Shown here piece by piece: positions 1,640-8,275 of a stretch of DNA of 11,279 nt. How positions within the stretch are numbered: the stretch's first letter is position 1; each line of letters opens with the position of its first letter. The stretch lies in assembly GCA_900319655.1 (NCBI GenBank), contig ONPH01000073.1:1-11279 (forward strand), read 5' to 3'. Below the pieces are notes generated by a model. That model did not search any database. It was not told where the DNA came from and worked only from the letters and a program-made list of their open reading frames with translations. The translations under genes were made by a program, and so were the position numbers. The stretch is from an uncultured Eubacteriales bacterium. Its GTDB lineage: Bacteria > Bacillota > Clostridia > Oscillospirales > Acutalibacteraceae.

Positions 1640-2875
1640 TCATAGTACGTTGAGATGTTCCACTACTTTAGCATAATAACGTTTCAGAAACTTGTTGGCT
1701 CCGGCAGTCATATAAACGTAGTAAGGTTTTCCTTCGGCTCTCTTTTTATCAAGAAATTGATAGACGGGTTCATCTACGGGAGCGTTTTGTAGGATAACGC
1801 TCATAATGTTGAACAAAGTTCTTCTTAGATAAGGCGAGCCGCGTTTAGATGCCTTGTTGCTTCTGGATGTTTTGTCACCCGAATCTTTTGGGACAGGGTC
1901 AACACCTGCAAACGCGACTAAAGATTGTTTGCGTTCAAATCGCGTCACGTCTCCAATCTCAGCCATGAGCTGCGGACCGGTAGATTCTCCGACTCCATAC
2001 ATGTGCTGCGGACCGGTAGATTCTCCGACTCCATACATGTTCATGACGACTTCGTATTCCGGGAGTTGTGATGCAAGGTTGTTCATTTCAGCACGATAGG
2101 CTTCAACAGAACCGGAAATAGCCGTCAACTGCTTTGCGGCTTGCTGAACAATAGTTTTGGAAACAGAGTCTTTAGGAACAAGAGCGACAACATTTTTAGA
2201 AAGCTCATAAACCTCTTCGGCATTACTGAGTTTGAACAAATATCCGTTGCGCTTACACCACTTGCGATAACGCTCTGTAAAAGCTTTCAAACTGAGTTTT
2301 CTTACACAATCGGCGTGCCAAAAGGTAGTGATGAAATCCACCCACTTTTGAGTTCCATCCTTGCGAACAGGACTTTCAAAGCATTTTCGGATTCCGGGGA
2401 ATACCTGCTCGGTCAGCGCAACCAGATTGTTGTTAGCGGCTGTTTTCTGCTTTGAGGAAAGATGAAACTGGCGGTGGAGAGTTTTTAGATTGTATCTAAC
2501 TGTATCCATAGGAGTATAATCTCTCAAATCCGCCCAGTTGTCAAGGGCATAACGCGCAATCTTTTGTGAATCAGCCTTATCGGTCTTTACTTTGCGTAAA
2601 GAATTGGCACCATATTCCTTGATTAATAAGGGATTAACGGCACAAACAAATAAGCCTTTTTCATGAAGTATTTTAGCTATTGATTCATAATAGCGACCTG
2701 TATGTTCCATGACAACGCGGGTTTCACCATCAATTGCCAGTAATTCGTCTGCCAGTTTGGAAAGTTCTGAAGGTGTATGTTTGACGTTAAACGGCAATTT
2801 TACCACCTCACCAAACGGACGTAAGACTGATACTGTGCTTCTGCCATTGGAAACATCAATTCCTGCTGCGTTCAT
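1640..2875 (-). CDS. IS110-family DEDD transposase with internal 12-residue duplication
   Basis: A site-specific recombinase that moves the element through an RuvC-like DEDD N-terminal domain and a C-terminal Transposase_20 domain. I start it at the ATG at 2875-2873 (411 aa, MNAAGIDVSNG) because AGAGG lies about 9 bases upstream on the minus strand and family members begin just before the first catalytic Asp. The frame stays open for 18 more codons to 2929, which I treat as leader. Candidate DEDD residues are D7 (GIDVSN), E57 (VVMEHTGRYY), D99 and D102 (KTDKAD). The C-terminal domain shows GVGESTGPQ, LMAEIGDVTRF, LVAFAGVDP and SKRGSPYLRRTLF. At about residues 279-302 the segment MYGVGESTGPQ(H/L) occurs twice in tandem, in frame, at the start of the Transposase_20 helix-hairpin-helix-like motif; this may impair the protein. 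No frameshift or early stop is seen. Confidence 0.93.
   Translation of the reverse strand: MNAAGIDVSNGRSTVSVLRPFGEVVKLPFNVKHTPSELSKLADELLAIDGETRVVMEHTGRYYESIAKILHEKGLFVCAVNPLLIKEYGANSLRKVKTDKADSQKIARYALDNWADLRDYTPMDTVRYNLKTLHRQFHLSSKQKTAANNNLVALTEQVFPGIRKCFESPVRKDGTQKWVDFITTFWHADCVRKLSLKAFTERYRKWCKRNGYLFKLSNAEEVYELSKNVVALVPKDSVSKTIVQQAAKQLTAISGSVEAYRAEMNNLASQLPEYEVVMNMYGVGESTGPQHMYGVGESTGPQLMAEIGDVTRFERKQSLVAFAGVDPVPKDSGDKTSRSNKASKRGSPYLRRTLFNIMSVILQNAPVDEPVYQFLDKKRAEGKPYYVYMTAGANKFLKRYYAKVVEHLNVL
1969..2040 (-). repeat. Perfect 36-bp tandem duplication inside the transposase gene
   Basis: Bases 1969-2004 and 2005-2040 are identical over all 36 positions. The period is a multiple of three, so the reading frame is kept and twelve residues are repeated. 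The lack of any difference between the copies suggests a recent event or a misassembly. Confidence 0.95.
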
Positions 2876-3167
2876 TTTCTTAAACCTCTTTTCGGTTGAT
2901 TGTAACGGACTATGCCTTCCTTTACCCATCGCCGATTCTATCTGTTTAATGACACGAACGTCCGGAATACCGATGCTTCTACCTACAACAAACGAACGCT
3001 GCGAACAGGAGGATGGCTGACTGACTAAAAGACGGACGTTTAAGTCCTTGGAGGTATAAGTCAGACCGTTCCTTCCTATTCTAACAGCTTAGGCAACGAG
3101 ATGCCCTATGTTTATGGCTGGCTGCCATATTTTAAGGGGCAAACATATTGTAACAGGAGGTATTTTT
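2876..3167. other. Noncoding stretch between the IS110 transposase and the surface-protein gene
   Basis: No credible gene lies here. The first about 100 bases are the 5' leader of the transposase, including its Shine-Dalgarno (AGAGG on minus) and the right inverted repeat (2977-2987). From about 2988 to 3090 I see only weak pairing, such as GGAC/GTCC around 3034-3047. Nearer the downstream gene are GGCA-ACGAGA-TGCC (3092-3105) and ATGGC-TGGCT-GCCAT (3114-3128), which could form small hairpins in its leader. I could not identify a promoter with two good hexamers for the downstream gene. The exact right end of the IS lies somewhere in this stretch. Confidence 0.5.
2977..2987 (-). repeat. Subterminal inverted repeat of the IS110 element, transposase 5' side
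   Basis: TTCTACCTACA on the plus strand is the exact reverse complement of 1425-1435. It lies about 100 bases upstream of the transposase start. Confidence 0.6.
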
Positions 3168-6358: not shown

Positions 6359-6473
6359 ATAAAATTAAGAATAAAAAAAGTTTTAAATAAATAGAGGAAT
6401 AAAATATTATTTTTCGTAAAAAGATATCGGAGAACAAAAAATGCGTGTAATCGTATTTAAGTTCTCAATAGCG
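6359..6473. other. AT-rich leader upstream of the dnaG repeat array
   Basis: This stretch is mostly A/T, and I could not find a promoter with two good hexamers. GAGAAC (6430-6435) and GTTCTC (6461-6466) are exact inverted complements across 25 bases. An ATG at 6441, with GGAG at 6429-6432, opens a 19-codon frame (MRVIVFKFSI...) that runs into the array and stops at 6498-6500; it could be a leader peptide or chance. Confidence 0.4.
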
Positions 6474-6571
6474 AATTTAGCTTGCCAAAGGCAAATTTAG
6501 CTGTTTTCGAAGAAAACAATTTAGCTGCGCGACAGCGCAATTTAGCTGTTTCCGCAGGAAACAATTTAGCT
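6474..6571. repeat. Array of five AATTTAGCT repeats separated by four distinct perfect hairpins
   Basis: Exact copies of AATTTAGCT lie at 6474-6482, 6494-6502, 6518-6526, 6539-6547 and 6563-6571. The four spacers are each a self-complementary hairpin: TGCC-AAA-GGCA (6483-6493), GTTTTC-GAA-GAAAAC (6503-6517), GCGC-GACA-GCGC (6527-6538) and GTTTCC-GCA-GGAAAC (6548-6562). Each stem gains one more T-A pair from the flanking repeats. Unit lengths are 20, 24, 21 and 24, so the array does not keep a reading frame even though one frame happens to be open through it. It ends 9 bases before the purine-rich dnaG ribosome site (6580-6586), so it forms the distal dnaG leader. It is not CRISPR: the repeats are too short and the spacers palindromic. 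I know no named element of this form. Confidence 0.95.
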
Positions 6572-6592: not shown

Positions 6593-8275
6593 TTGGCTAT
6601 TCCCGAAAGCTTTATTCAGGAGCTTAAGCTGCGCAACGACATTACAGAAGTAATTTCGACCTACGTAAGCCTAAAAAAGCGCGGCAGAAATATGGTCGGA
6701 CTTTGTCCGTTCCACGGCGAGAAAACCCCGTCCTTTAATATTTATACCGAGACCGATTCCTTTTACTGCTTCGGCTGCGGAGCTTCGGGCGACGTAATCT
6801 CTTTTATAATGAAGATTGAAAATCTCGACTACGTCGAAGCCGTAAAGTACCTTGCCCAGCGCGCAGGAATGGATATGCCTGAGGACGGCTATGACGACAG
6901 TCTAAGCCGCCTGAGGAAAAGAGTATATGAAGCCAACCGCGAGGCGGCGAGGTTTTATTATAAAACTCTTATTTCCGAAAACGGCAGGGCAGGTCTTGAC
7001 TATTTTCACTCGCGAATGTTAGCGGACAGCACAATCCGCCATTTCGGGCTCGGTTTTGCCGATGATAACTGGTCGTCGCTCTGCAAGCACCTTAAGTCCA
7101 AGGGATTTAAGGACAGCGAGCTTGTAGCCGCCAACCTCGCGGTACAGAGGAGAAACGGCAAGGGCATTTACGACCGTTTCACAAACCGGGTGATGTTCCC
7201 GATTATCGACCTTCGCGGCAATGTAATCGCCTTCGGCGGTCGAATAATGACCGACCAAAAGCCGAAATATCTCAATACCTCGGACACGCCTGTGTTTAAG
7301 AAAAGCGAAAATTTGTTTTCGCTCAACAACGCAAAAAACTCAGGCTCACGCACCCTGATACTCTGCGAGGGCTATATGGACGTCATCGCGGTTAATCAGG
7401 CAGGCTTCCAAAACGCCGTGGCAACCCTCGGAACTGCGCTCACAACCGAGCAGGCTGTGCTGATGAAGCGCTACGCCGATGAAGTAATAATCTGCTACGA
7501 CGCAGACGAGGCAGGCCAAAAAGCTACCGCAAGGGCAATTCCCCTACTCAGAAACGCTGGGCTTAACATAAGAGTTCTCAATATTCCGAACGGCAAGGAT
7601 CCCGACGAGTTCATCAAGTCAAAGGGCGTTGACGGTCCTGCGGCTTTCCGTGATATAATCGAAAAAAGCGGAAACGACGTTGAATACCGCCTGCAAAAGC
7701 TCAAAGGCGAGTACAACACCGAGACAAGCGAGGGTATGGTCGGCTTCCTAAACGCCGCGACAAGGCTGATTGCCACAATAAGCGGCGAGGTTGAGCGCGA
7801 CGTCTACACCTCGAAAATCTGCAAGGAATTCGGCGTTGACAAAGAAGCCTTCAAACGACAGGTGAATTCCAACATTCGCCGCAAAAACCGCGATAACTCC
7901 AAAAAAGAGTTTCGCGAAATCCGCGACAATATGGCTGGCAGGGGAGATAAGTTTAACACCGAGCATCAAAAAAAGCCGCGTTCATCCTCTGCAGAAGAAA
8001 AATTAATTGTCTATCTGGTAAAGCATCAGGATTCCGCAGGTTATATATCAAAAAGGCTAAAGCCTGAGGATTTTCAAAATTCGCTTATGCGCCGATACTA
8101 TGAATATTTTACCGAACGCATAAATAACGGCTACGAGCCTGCCAACAATATAACGGCGGACTTTACCGAGGACATTTTAGATGAGAGCCAAAAGGCAAAA
8201 ATCGGAAATTCTTCCGATATGTCGAATGACGATATGCTCAACAGGCTCAACAAGTTAAGGGAAAAGAAAGGATGA
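6593..8275 (+). CDS. dnaG: DNA primase
   Basis: Synthesises RNA primers for chromosome replication, working with the replicative helicase at the fork. I chose the TTG at 6593 because GGAGGG (6581-6586) is ideally placed and the product then starts MAIPESFIQELKLRNDITEV, the normal primase N-terminus. The longer frame from 6482 only reads the repeat array. The product is 560 residues, near the usual length. The zinc finger has C38, H41, C59 and C62 (LCPFHGEKTPSF...FYCFGCGASGDVISF). The TOPRIM core has EGYMD (259-263) and YDADEAG (302-308), the acidic metal-binding residues. The C-terminal about 130 residues are the divergent helicase-interacting region. The stop is 5 bases before rpoD, so the two are cotranscribed in the classic macromolecular-synthesis order. 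The non-ATG start and the hairpin leader suggest translation is kept low or controlled. Confidence 0.97.
   Translation: MAIPESFIQELKLRNDITEVISTYVSLKKRGRNMVGLCPFHGEKTPSFNIYTETDSFYCFGCGASGDVISFIMKIENLDYVEAVKYLAQRAGMDMPEDGYDDSLSRLRKRVYEANREAARFYYKTLISENGRAGLDYFHSRMLADSTIRHFGLGFADDNWSSLCKHLKSKGFKDSELVAANLAVQRRNGKGIYDRFTNRVMFPIIDLRGNVIAFGGRIMTDQKPKYLNTSDTPVFKKSENLFSLNNAKNSGSRTLILCEGYMDVIAVNQAGFQNAVATLGTALTTEQAVLMKRYADEVIICYDADEAGQKATARAIPLLRNAGLNIRVLNIPNGKDPDEFIKSKGVDGPAAFRDIIEKSGNDVEYRLQKLKGEYNTETSEGMVGFLNAATRLIATISGEVERDVYTSKICKEFGVDKEAFKRQVNSNIRRKNRDNSKKEFREIRDNMAGRGDKFNTEHQKKPRSSSAEEKLIVYLVKHQDSAGYISKRLKPEDFQNSLMRRYYEYFTERINNGYEPANNITADFTEDILDESQKAKIGNSSDMSNDDMLNRLNKLREKKG

Follow-up and report, generated by a model that had tools for sequence, protein, structure and literature searches.

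The hairpin array upstream of dnaG

Upstream of dnaG in an uncultured Eubacteriales bacterium lies a row of small palindromes separated by one constant 9-mer. This locus raises the question of whether the row belongs to dnaG or is a repeat found elsewhere, and whether its paired spacers act as RNA or as DNA. The window, which is the whole 11,279-nt stretch of DNA analysed here, contained genes for ThrRS, an IS110-family transposase, a large protein without a Pfam match, a UPF0029 protein, dnaG, and a sigma-70 protein with regions 1.1-4, presumably rpoD. The transposase gene (1640-2929, minus strand) carried a 36-nt in-frame tandem duplication at 1964-2040 that repeats MYGVGESTGPQ, and eight perfect copies of the tetranucleotide ACAG were found in the intergenic DNA at 1231-1262, which is unusual for a bacterium and a possible slippage site.

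The array was located between the UPF0029 gene and dnaG. Direct reading of the plus strand at 6474-6571 agreed exactly with the original observation of five 9-mers flanking four palindromic spacers. The five exact AATTTAGCT linkers (6474..6482, 6494..6502, 6518..6526, 6539..6547, and 6563..6571, the last forming the outer end) alternated with four perfect hairpins: TGCC-AAA-GGCA (6483..6493), GTTTTC-GAA-GAAAAC with a GNA loop (6503..6517), GCGC-GACA-GCGC with a GNNA loop (6527..6538), and GTTTCC-GCA-GGAAAC with a GNA loop (6548..6562). Three of the loops were triloops (AAA, GAA, GCA) and the fourth was the tetraloop GACA. When folded as DNA, the array formed all four hairpins on either strand (minimum-energy fold; z -2.69 and -2.87), with one extra 3-bp outer helix. 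When folded as RNA, the plus strand formed the first two of the four hairpins only (z -2.24).

Copy number and palindromy in the genome

Searches of the full genome and of relatives for spaced linker copies with self-complementary spacers, as had been suggested, bore out a multi-copy palindromic repeat family. The window's genome contained 53 single AATTTAGCT words, compared with 9 for the reversed word, and 30 linker pairs at 8-20 nt spacing on ten contigs, compared with 0 for the reversed pattern. When every locus was kept, the 31 distinct spacers of this genome were paired at 151 of 159 stem positions (95%), and 26 were perfect. In 1000 shuffles of the same spacers the mean was 29.7% and the maximum 41.5%, far below the observed level. 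Pairing was kept while the stem sequence changed, as originally proposed.

A scan of named genome contigs gave at least 119 array stretches, of which 98 were judged real and 21 were judged chance matches. The 21 dropped loci were chosen by eye as non-palindromic (20.6% of their spacer positions paired), and because such dropping favours palindromy, the undropped figures are also given: Watson-Crick pairs filled 77.8% of stem positions over all 119 listed scan loci and, as above, 95% in the window's own genome. Locus L172 was a second copy of the window and was excluded from the counts. The 112 kept loci (listed scan matches together with own-genome and same-genus loci) contained 356 distinct spacers, with 86.9% Watson-Crick stem positions versus 28.8% after shuffling; 247 of the 356 were perfect versus 3.9 expected, among the matches listed. 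These spacer counts are not independent, since the spacers are related by descent. Chance is excluded as the source of the array by the counts in the window's own genome, 30 linker pairs against 0 and 53 linkers against 9.

Architecture and hosts of the complete element

The complete element consisted of two opposed arms around a short core, with AGCTAAATT-type linkers on one side and AATTTAGCT-type linkers on the other. Among the matches listed, exactly 4+4 linkers were present in 26 of the 59 simple two-armed arrays, and one-armed arrays were also common. Seventeen of the 26 could be oriented by their core, and in these each hairpin position had a typical length and a variable sequence. The modal lengths were 16 nt at A3 (10/17), 17 nt at A2 (8/17), 13 or 11 nt at A1, 9 nt at B1 (8/17), 10-11 nt at B2, and 12 nt at B3 (8/17). 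A tree fold, in which linkers of opposed arms would pair into stacked four-way junctions, was considered and rejected. All four nested helices appeared in the minimum-energy fold of the DNA plus strand in 10 of the 26 4+4 elements; nested linkers showed no covariation within elements (53 mismatches versus 52.2 in shuffles, P 0.81).

In elements of several species (e.g., L127, L133, and the G065 copies), reading by eye showed that the core carries a second copy of the outermost hairpin's 3' half together with the complement of the linker, examples being AAATTCGCC/GGCGAATTT, AAATCCGTCC/GGACGGATTT, and CCACCC/GGGTGG. An alternative closing stem is possible in such elements, and it changes in step between subfamilies. 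In G065, linkers of GTGAAAT-type classes coexisted with others.

Most carriers among the matches listed were MAGs from the ruminant gut bearing the names Ruminococcus, Oscillospiraceae, or Clostridia; several MAGs were labelled Akkermansia, and all labels were taken as given. At least one exact linker pair was found in 8 of the 60 genomes sampled from the window's genus, its own included, and none in the other 52. The family is thus multi-copy with a patchy distribution. The viral matches did not belong to it: 24 viral contigs matched the linker pattern, no perfect palindrome occurred among their 30 distinct spacers, and none of the 24 was a real array. The best viral spacer, in L147, paired at 5 of 6 positions, whereas no spacer of suitable length was obtained from L162.

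Relation to the Rfam family Gut-1

The minus strand of the window array (6470..6548) matched the Rfam family RF01706, Gut-1, with 28.9 bits and an E-value of 0.0038, below the cut-off of 50, and nothing in the window reached any Rfam cut-off. The best score in the window's own genome was 44.2 (L023), also below 50. All of 12 array-bearing genomes matched Gut-1 at E 0.01, and 10 of the 12 exceeded the cut-off. These genomes held 3 to 57 matches each, in both orientations and many as opposed pairs. In the window's family, a match at E 1e-6 was found in 58 of 150 genomes and in 55 of 135 genera; 51 of the 150 genomes were over the cut-off, and 92 had no match. At E 1e-8, Gut-1 occurred in 1 of 249 genomes across the phylum, a sample with few or no other family members and a threshold that the window's own genome also fails. 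By these matches, Gut-1 is one arm of the complete two-armed element, and the remark that no named element with this architecture was known needs correcting accordingly.

Tandem Gut-1 elements were also seen at L228 600-1600 (G134), where whole elements stood head to tail with a period of about 290 bp beside a terminator-like hairpin and, by eye, a tRNA.

Gut-1 (RF01706; Weinberg et al. 2010, PMC2864571) is listed as an sRNA of 77 positions, "Human gut only". Its hairpins are parted by near-identical linkers of the UGAAAU type, like those described here. Unlike in that listing, the sequence is here one arm of a two-armed repeat, lies in both orientations, occurs mostly in ruminant-gut Clostridia, and has its DNA-stable loops on the strand opposite to the one that Rfam models. 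In searches of the open PMC literature, RF01706 was found in PMC2864571 alone and the phrase "Gut-1 RNA" was not found; no description of such hairpin arrays appeared in titles or abstract openings, and a search with the linker string gave no title on such arrays among the matches listed. Within the reach of these searches, the element's anatomy, its host range, its equation with Gut-1, and the evidence from the loops are new.

The dnaG locus in related genomes

The dnaG gene (6593..8275, plus strand; Pfam DNAG_N, Zn_ribbon_DnaG, and Toprim) starts with TTG after the RBS GGAGGG, and its homologues start at the same place. Upstream of it and outside the element, a promoter-like motif, GGAAT-N14-CGTA, was found at 6396..6418 on the plus strand. 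In 25 of 30 same-genus loci the pattern GGA-N16-CGTA was present no more than 230 nt before dnaG, compared with a shuffled expectation of 0.26 in 30. We infer a promoter role for the motif, which resembles an alternative-sigma (ECF-like) promoter for dnaG-rpoD. In L196, L199, and L201 the motif was likewise set back, 122-191 nt before the start, and other insertions may be present in these leaders.

The array stands between this motif and the RBS of dnaG. A dnaG match was obtained in 59 genomes, and 30 loci, the window's own included, were taken for comparison. In the suggested comparison at the dnaG locus, the array was present in the window, and the 400 nt before dnaG contained neither an exact linker nor a pair of near-linkers at any of the 29 other same-genus loci. 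Alignment with five relatives showed that the stretch 6446..6571 (plus strand) was missing from their dnaG leaders and is inserted or expanded here, with its left limit uncertain by several bases. Its first part, 6446..6473 (..TTTAAGTTCTCAATAGCG), adjoins the first linker and may be a decayed remnant of the core, to judge from its likeness by eye to the core of L017, a complete element (..TAGTTAAAGAATAGCTCGCGCAAGCG).

The closest relative sampled, G053, aligned on both flanks of the dnaG array with about 126 nt missing, which is an empty site. At a second site, C63, G053 was also without the array, though the intergenic DNA there had diverged, and no exact linker pair was found anywhere in the G053 genome. 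The copies were thus gained in the window's lineage or lost in G053. Both sites were too diverged for a TSD to be read, and deletion or growth of an array in place can produce empty sites as well.

The proposal that the array is an RNA leader acting on dnaG did not survive this comparison. As a regulatory leader specific to dnaG, the array would sit where it should, between the promoter-like motif and the RBS. However, it was absent upstream of dnaG in all 29 other same-genus loci, arrays occurred on nine other contigs of the window's genome, no gene family recurred close beside arrays elsewhere, and the loops took no account of the direction of transcription (see below). A dnaG-only leader was rejected on these grounds and is hardly credible, and the window array probably has little effect at dnaG.

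Loop sequences, mismatches, and strand polarity

Loops were classified in the distinct hairpins of the 112 kept loci, and these counts hold among the matches listed. On the AATTTAGCT strand, 103 of 178 triloops were GNA and none was TNC, and C-G closed the loop in 154 of the 178. The tetraloops of this strand were GNNA in 75 of 132 (GNRA 34, GNYA 41) and TNNC in 1. Read on the opposite strand, 1 of the 310 triloops and tetraloops was of the G..A type. By locus, at least one G..A loop was present in 107 of 112 and a T..C loop in 1 of 112, while about a third of the loops fell outside the G..A class. The original suggestion of loops of the ssDNA mini-hairpin type was thus upheld for many of the hairpins.

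Terminator hairpins from the same loci were used as the yardstick for RNA. Their triloops were GNA in 2 of 27 (P 4e-7 versus the arrays), and their 77 tetraloops included 11 GNRA and 4 GNYA; the difference in the GNYA:GNRA split between arrays and terminators was not significant alone (P 0.09). Stable sheared G.A pairs have a Py-GA-Pu context. Among the matches listed, 25 of 34 tandem mismatches were GA/GA, all 25 in this context, and there were 26 G.T and 16 A.C mismatches, a ratio of 1.6.

Among the matches listed, arrays between codirectional genes showed that loop polarity followed the linker. On the sense strand, antisense arms had 83 T..C and 1 G..A loops, and sense arms had 46 G..A and 0 T..C loops. 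Of the 130 hairpins whose loop was T..C or G..A, 129 thus had the polarity of their linker, regardless of which way transcription ran; 74 further hairpins had other loops. RF01706 models the strand opposite to the one with the G..A loops.

According to Hirao's group (PMC4686876), which uses the CGCGAAGCG hairpin, DNA mini-hairpins with GNA or GNNA loops are extraordinarily stable when they contain two or more G-C pairs. This exact hairpin was a spacer in the arrays studied here. The loop, polarity, and mismatch data agree, indirectly, with selection for folding as single-stranded DNA, which would act in each arm on the strand running outward from the core.

Genomic positions and search for a mobiliser

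Most arrays were intergenic: 114 of 119 were not inside ORFs of at least 100 aa and 5 were, among the matches listed. They were scarcer in divergent gaps (6/65 versus 62/320, P 0.05; matches listed). The outer end of the array followed directly after an intrinsic terminator reading into it in 16 of 163 cases among the matches listed, compared with 176 of 45,228 intergenic positions of the same loci (P 2e-17) and 104 of 14,290 positions at most 150 nt from gene 3' ends (P 4e-13). A random control over whole loci, coding DNA included (12/9776), flatters the excess, so the two stricter controls were used; the mirror count of terminator adjacency was 0 but refers to a different distance and is no control. 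For an enzyme that recognises single-stranded DNA hairpins, a hairpin beside the point of insertion would be favourable, but simple tolerance at gene ends is also possible.

No association with Y1_Tnp was found in the genus (3/8 array-positive versus 25/52 array-negative genomes) or in the family (22/58 Gut-1-positive versus 38/92 other genomes). No Y1 match was obtained in five of the eight array-positive same-genus genomes, among them G000 (81% complete); G039, which is 100% complete and has 8 Gut-1 matches, also gave none. No Gut-1 match at E 0.1 was found in 16 Y1 loci, of which 12 came from Gut-1-positive genomes, 1 from the array-positive G057, and 3 from others. By eye, divergent Y1 proteins seemed more frequent in Gut-1-positive genomes (about 10 of 58 versus 5 of 92 others), in a set chosen after the list had been seen. 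A RAYT/Y1 mobiliser was rejected on the lack of association and of a Gut-1 match in the 16 Y1 loci. Beside a tRNA and a Y1 transposase fragment, L237 had a sub-threshold match to STnc490 at 1594-1704 (46.5 bits, cut-off 56, E 5e-6).

No protein family recurred close to arrays in at least four loci, and in this sense no parent transposon was found close by. Of the 534 ORFs of at least 120 aa in the loci, one family was present in at least four loci (ABC ATPases by eye), at a median of 1508 nt from the array. A candidate autonomous copy at G069:C27, with half-elements about 3.4 kb apart, was rejected: the DNA between them encoded two similar large membrane proteins, ABC-transporter-permease-like in our reading, and no transposase.

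Comparison with known repeats

MITEs are short, non-coding, multi-copy elements with inverted ends and a patchy distribution between species. The arrays shared all these properties, the inverted ends being the opposed linkers AGCTAAATT...AATTTAGCT, and differed from MITEs in their internal array of differing hairpins. Streptococcal BOX elements are modular, dispersed, and intergenic, with a variable number of units and conserved module sequences. The arrays resembled them in modularity, dispersal, and unit number, but had mini-hairpins with free stems instead of conserved modules. Integron attC sites have core sites with R and L boxes and are recombined by IntI as folded single-stranded DNA. 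CRISPR arrays have constant repeats, non-palindromic acquired spacers, and cas genes; this class was rejected, as the spacers here were palindromic and some recurred between loci.

REP, BIME, and REPIN sequences (PMC3116915; PMC2817692, PMC3733652) are extragenic, multi-copy, and palindromic with opposed pairs around a spacer, features also found here, and a hairpin transposition intermediate has been proposed for REPINs. Here the linkers were conserved, the stems were free, and the arms typically had four linkers, unlike in REP/REPIN. In REP/REPIN sequences the palindrome is conserved and one end carries a GTAG or CGTC tag (tags from PMC3733652). Here the stems differed, and AATTTAGCT contains neither tag. 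A REP/REPIN system with a cognate RAYT was also rejected, given five of eight array-positive genus genomes without Y1 and 16 Y1 loci without Gut-1; no RAYT/Y1 association or flanking of the REPIN/RAYT kind was found. The LIMPs of an algal mitochondrion (PMC4524435) are palindromic repeats with an invariant loop and the ends AACCA...UGGUU. They are likewise dispersed intergenic hairpin elements; here, unlike in LIMPs, the stems differ and the constant linker lies outside.

Nature of the element

The architecture, palindromy, per-position lengths, one-strand DNA-type loops, patchy spread, G053 empty sites, and terminator excess of this family would be explained best by a dispersed repeat of mobile type whose working form is folded single-stranded DNA. 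From sequence comparison, we give about an even chance to this reading together with its corollary that the window copy is a one-armed, partly decayed copy of the dispersed Gut-1 hairpin-array element. The element would spread non-autonomously, by mobility or amplification. In each arm, the strand that runs outward from the core would become single-stranded and fold into a row of very stable mini-hairpins. A putative protein would read hairpin shape and linker rather than stem sequence, and stems may for that reason drift so long as pairing holds.

An RNA function, in which Gut-1 would be either a genuine small RNA or an RNA element acting in cis and the arrays would be copies of its gene, is unlikely but has several points in its favour. 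Rfam lists RF01706 as an sRNA, and Weinberg et al. are cited for the RNA reading. By eye, some G065 copies follow the T-tract of apparent tRNA-gene terminators and one G065 subfamily ends in a terminator-like hairpin, and G.T mismatches (26) outnumber A.C (16) among the matches listed. The ratio is only 1.6, however, and GNYA loops were as common as GNRA among the matches listed. Gut-1 copies lie in both orientations and as opposed pairs at many places, the G..A loops are on the strand opposite to the Rfam model and follow the linker instead of the gene, and the window array folds as RNA into two of its four hairpins. A chromosomal function, as a boundary, terminator-reinforcing, or protein-binding array in double-stranded or cruciform form, as proposed for REP/BIME, seems quite unlikely. 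The intergenic position (114/119 not inside ORFs), the scarcity in divergent gaps (6/65 versus 62/320, P 0.05; both among the matches listed), and the excess beside terminators would agree with it, yet position near genes also fits harmless insertion. The arrays do not answer a conserved need, because 52 of 60 genus genomes had no exact pair and 92 of 150 family genomes had no Gut-1 match at E 1e-6.

Selection might also be dispensed with altogether if template switching during replication kept making perfect palindromes of the spacers between slippage-prone linkers. Palindrome correction and slippage would be expected to leave perfect stems of unrelated sequence and differing numbers of units. 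G..A loops with a single polarity, the kept GA/GA tandem mismatches (25/34), the C-G pair that closes 154 of 178 triloops, and the typical length of each position are not predicted by this process, and we consider it improbable.

A wider reading of the mobile, single-stranded DNA element is more tentative: it would represent a new class of selfish elements read by the shape of folded single-stranded DNA, with Gut-1 an arm of it and not an RNA, and with terminator hairpins among its landing sites. We hold this possible, on the less probable side. If true, the mobile-repeat explanation would supply an anatomy and a host range for Rfam Gut-1 and make it probably repeat DNA instead of an sRNA. It would also mean that natural selection uses the GNA/GNNA single-stranded DNA hairpins, valued by chemists for their stability, as a sequence-independent recognition code. 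The many loci and the patchy genomes form a direct test set for finding the enzyme.
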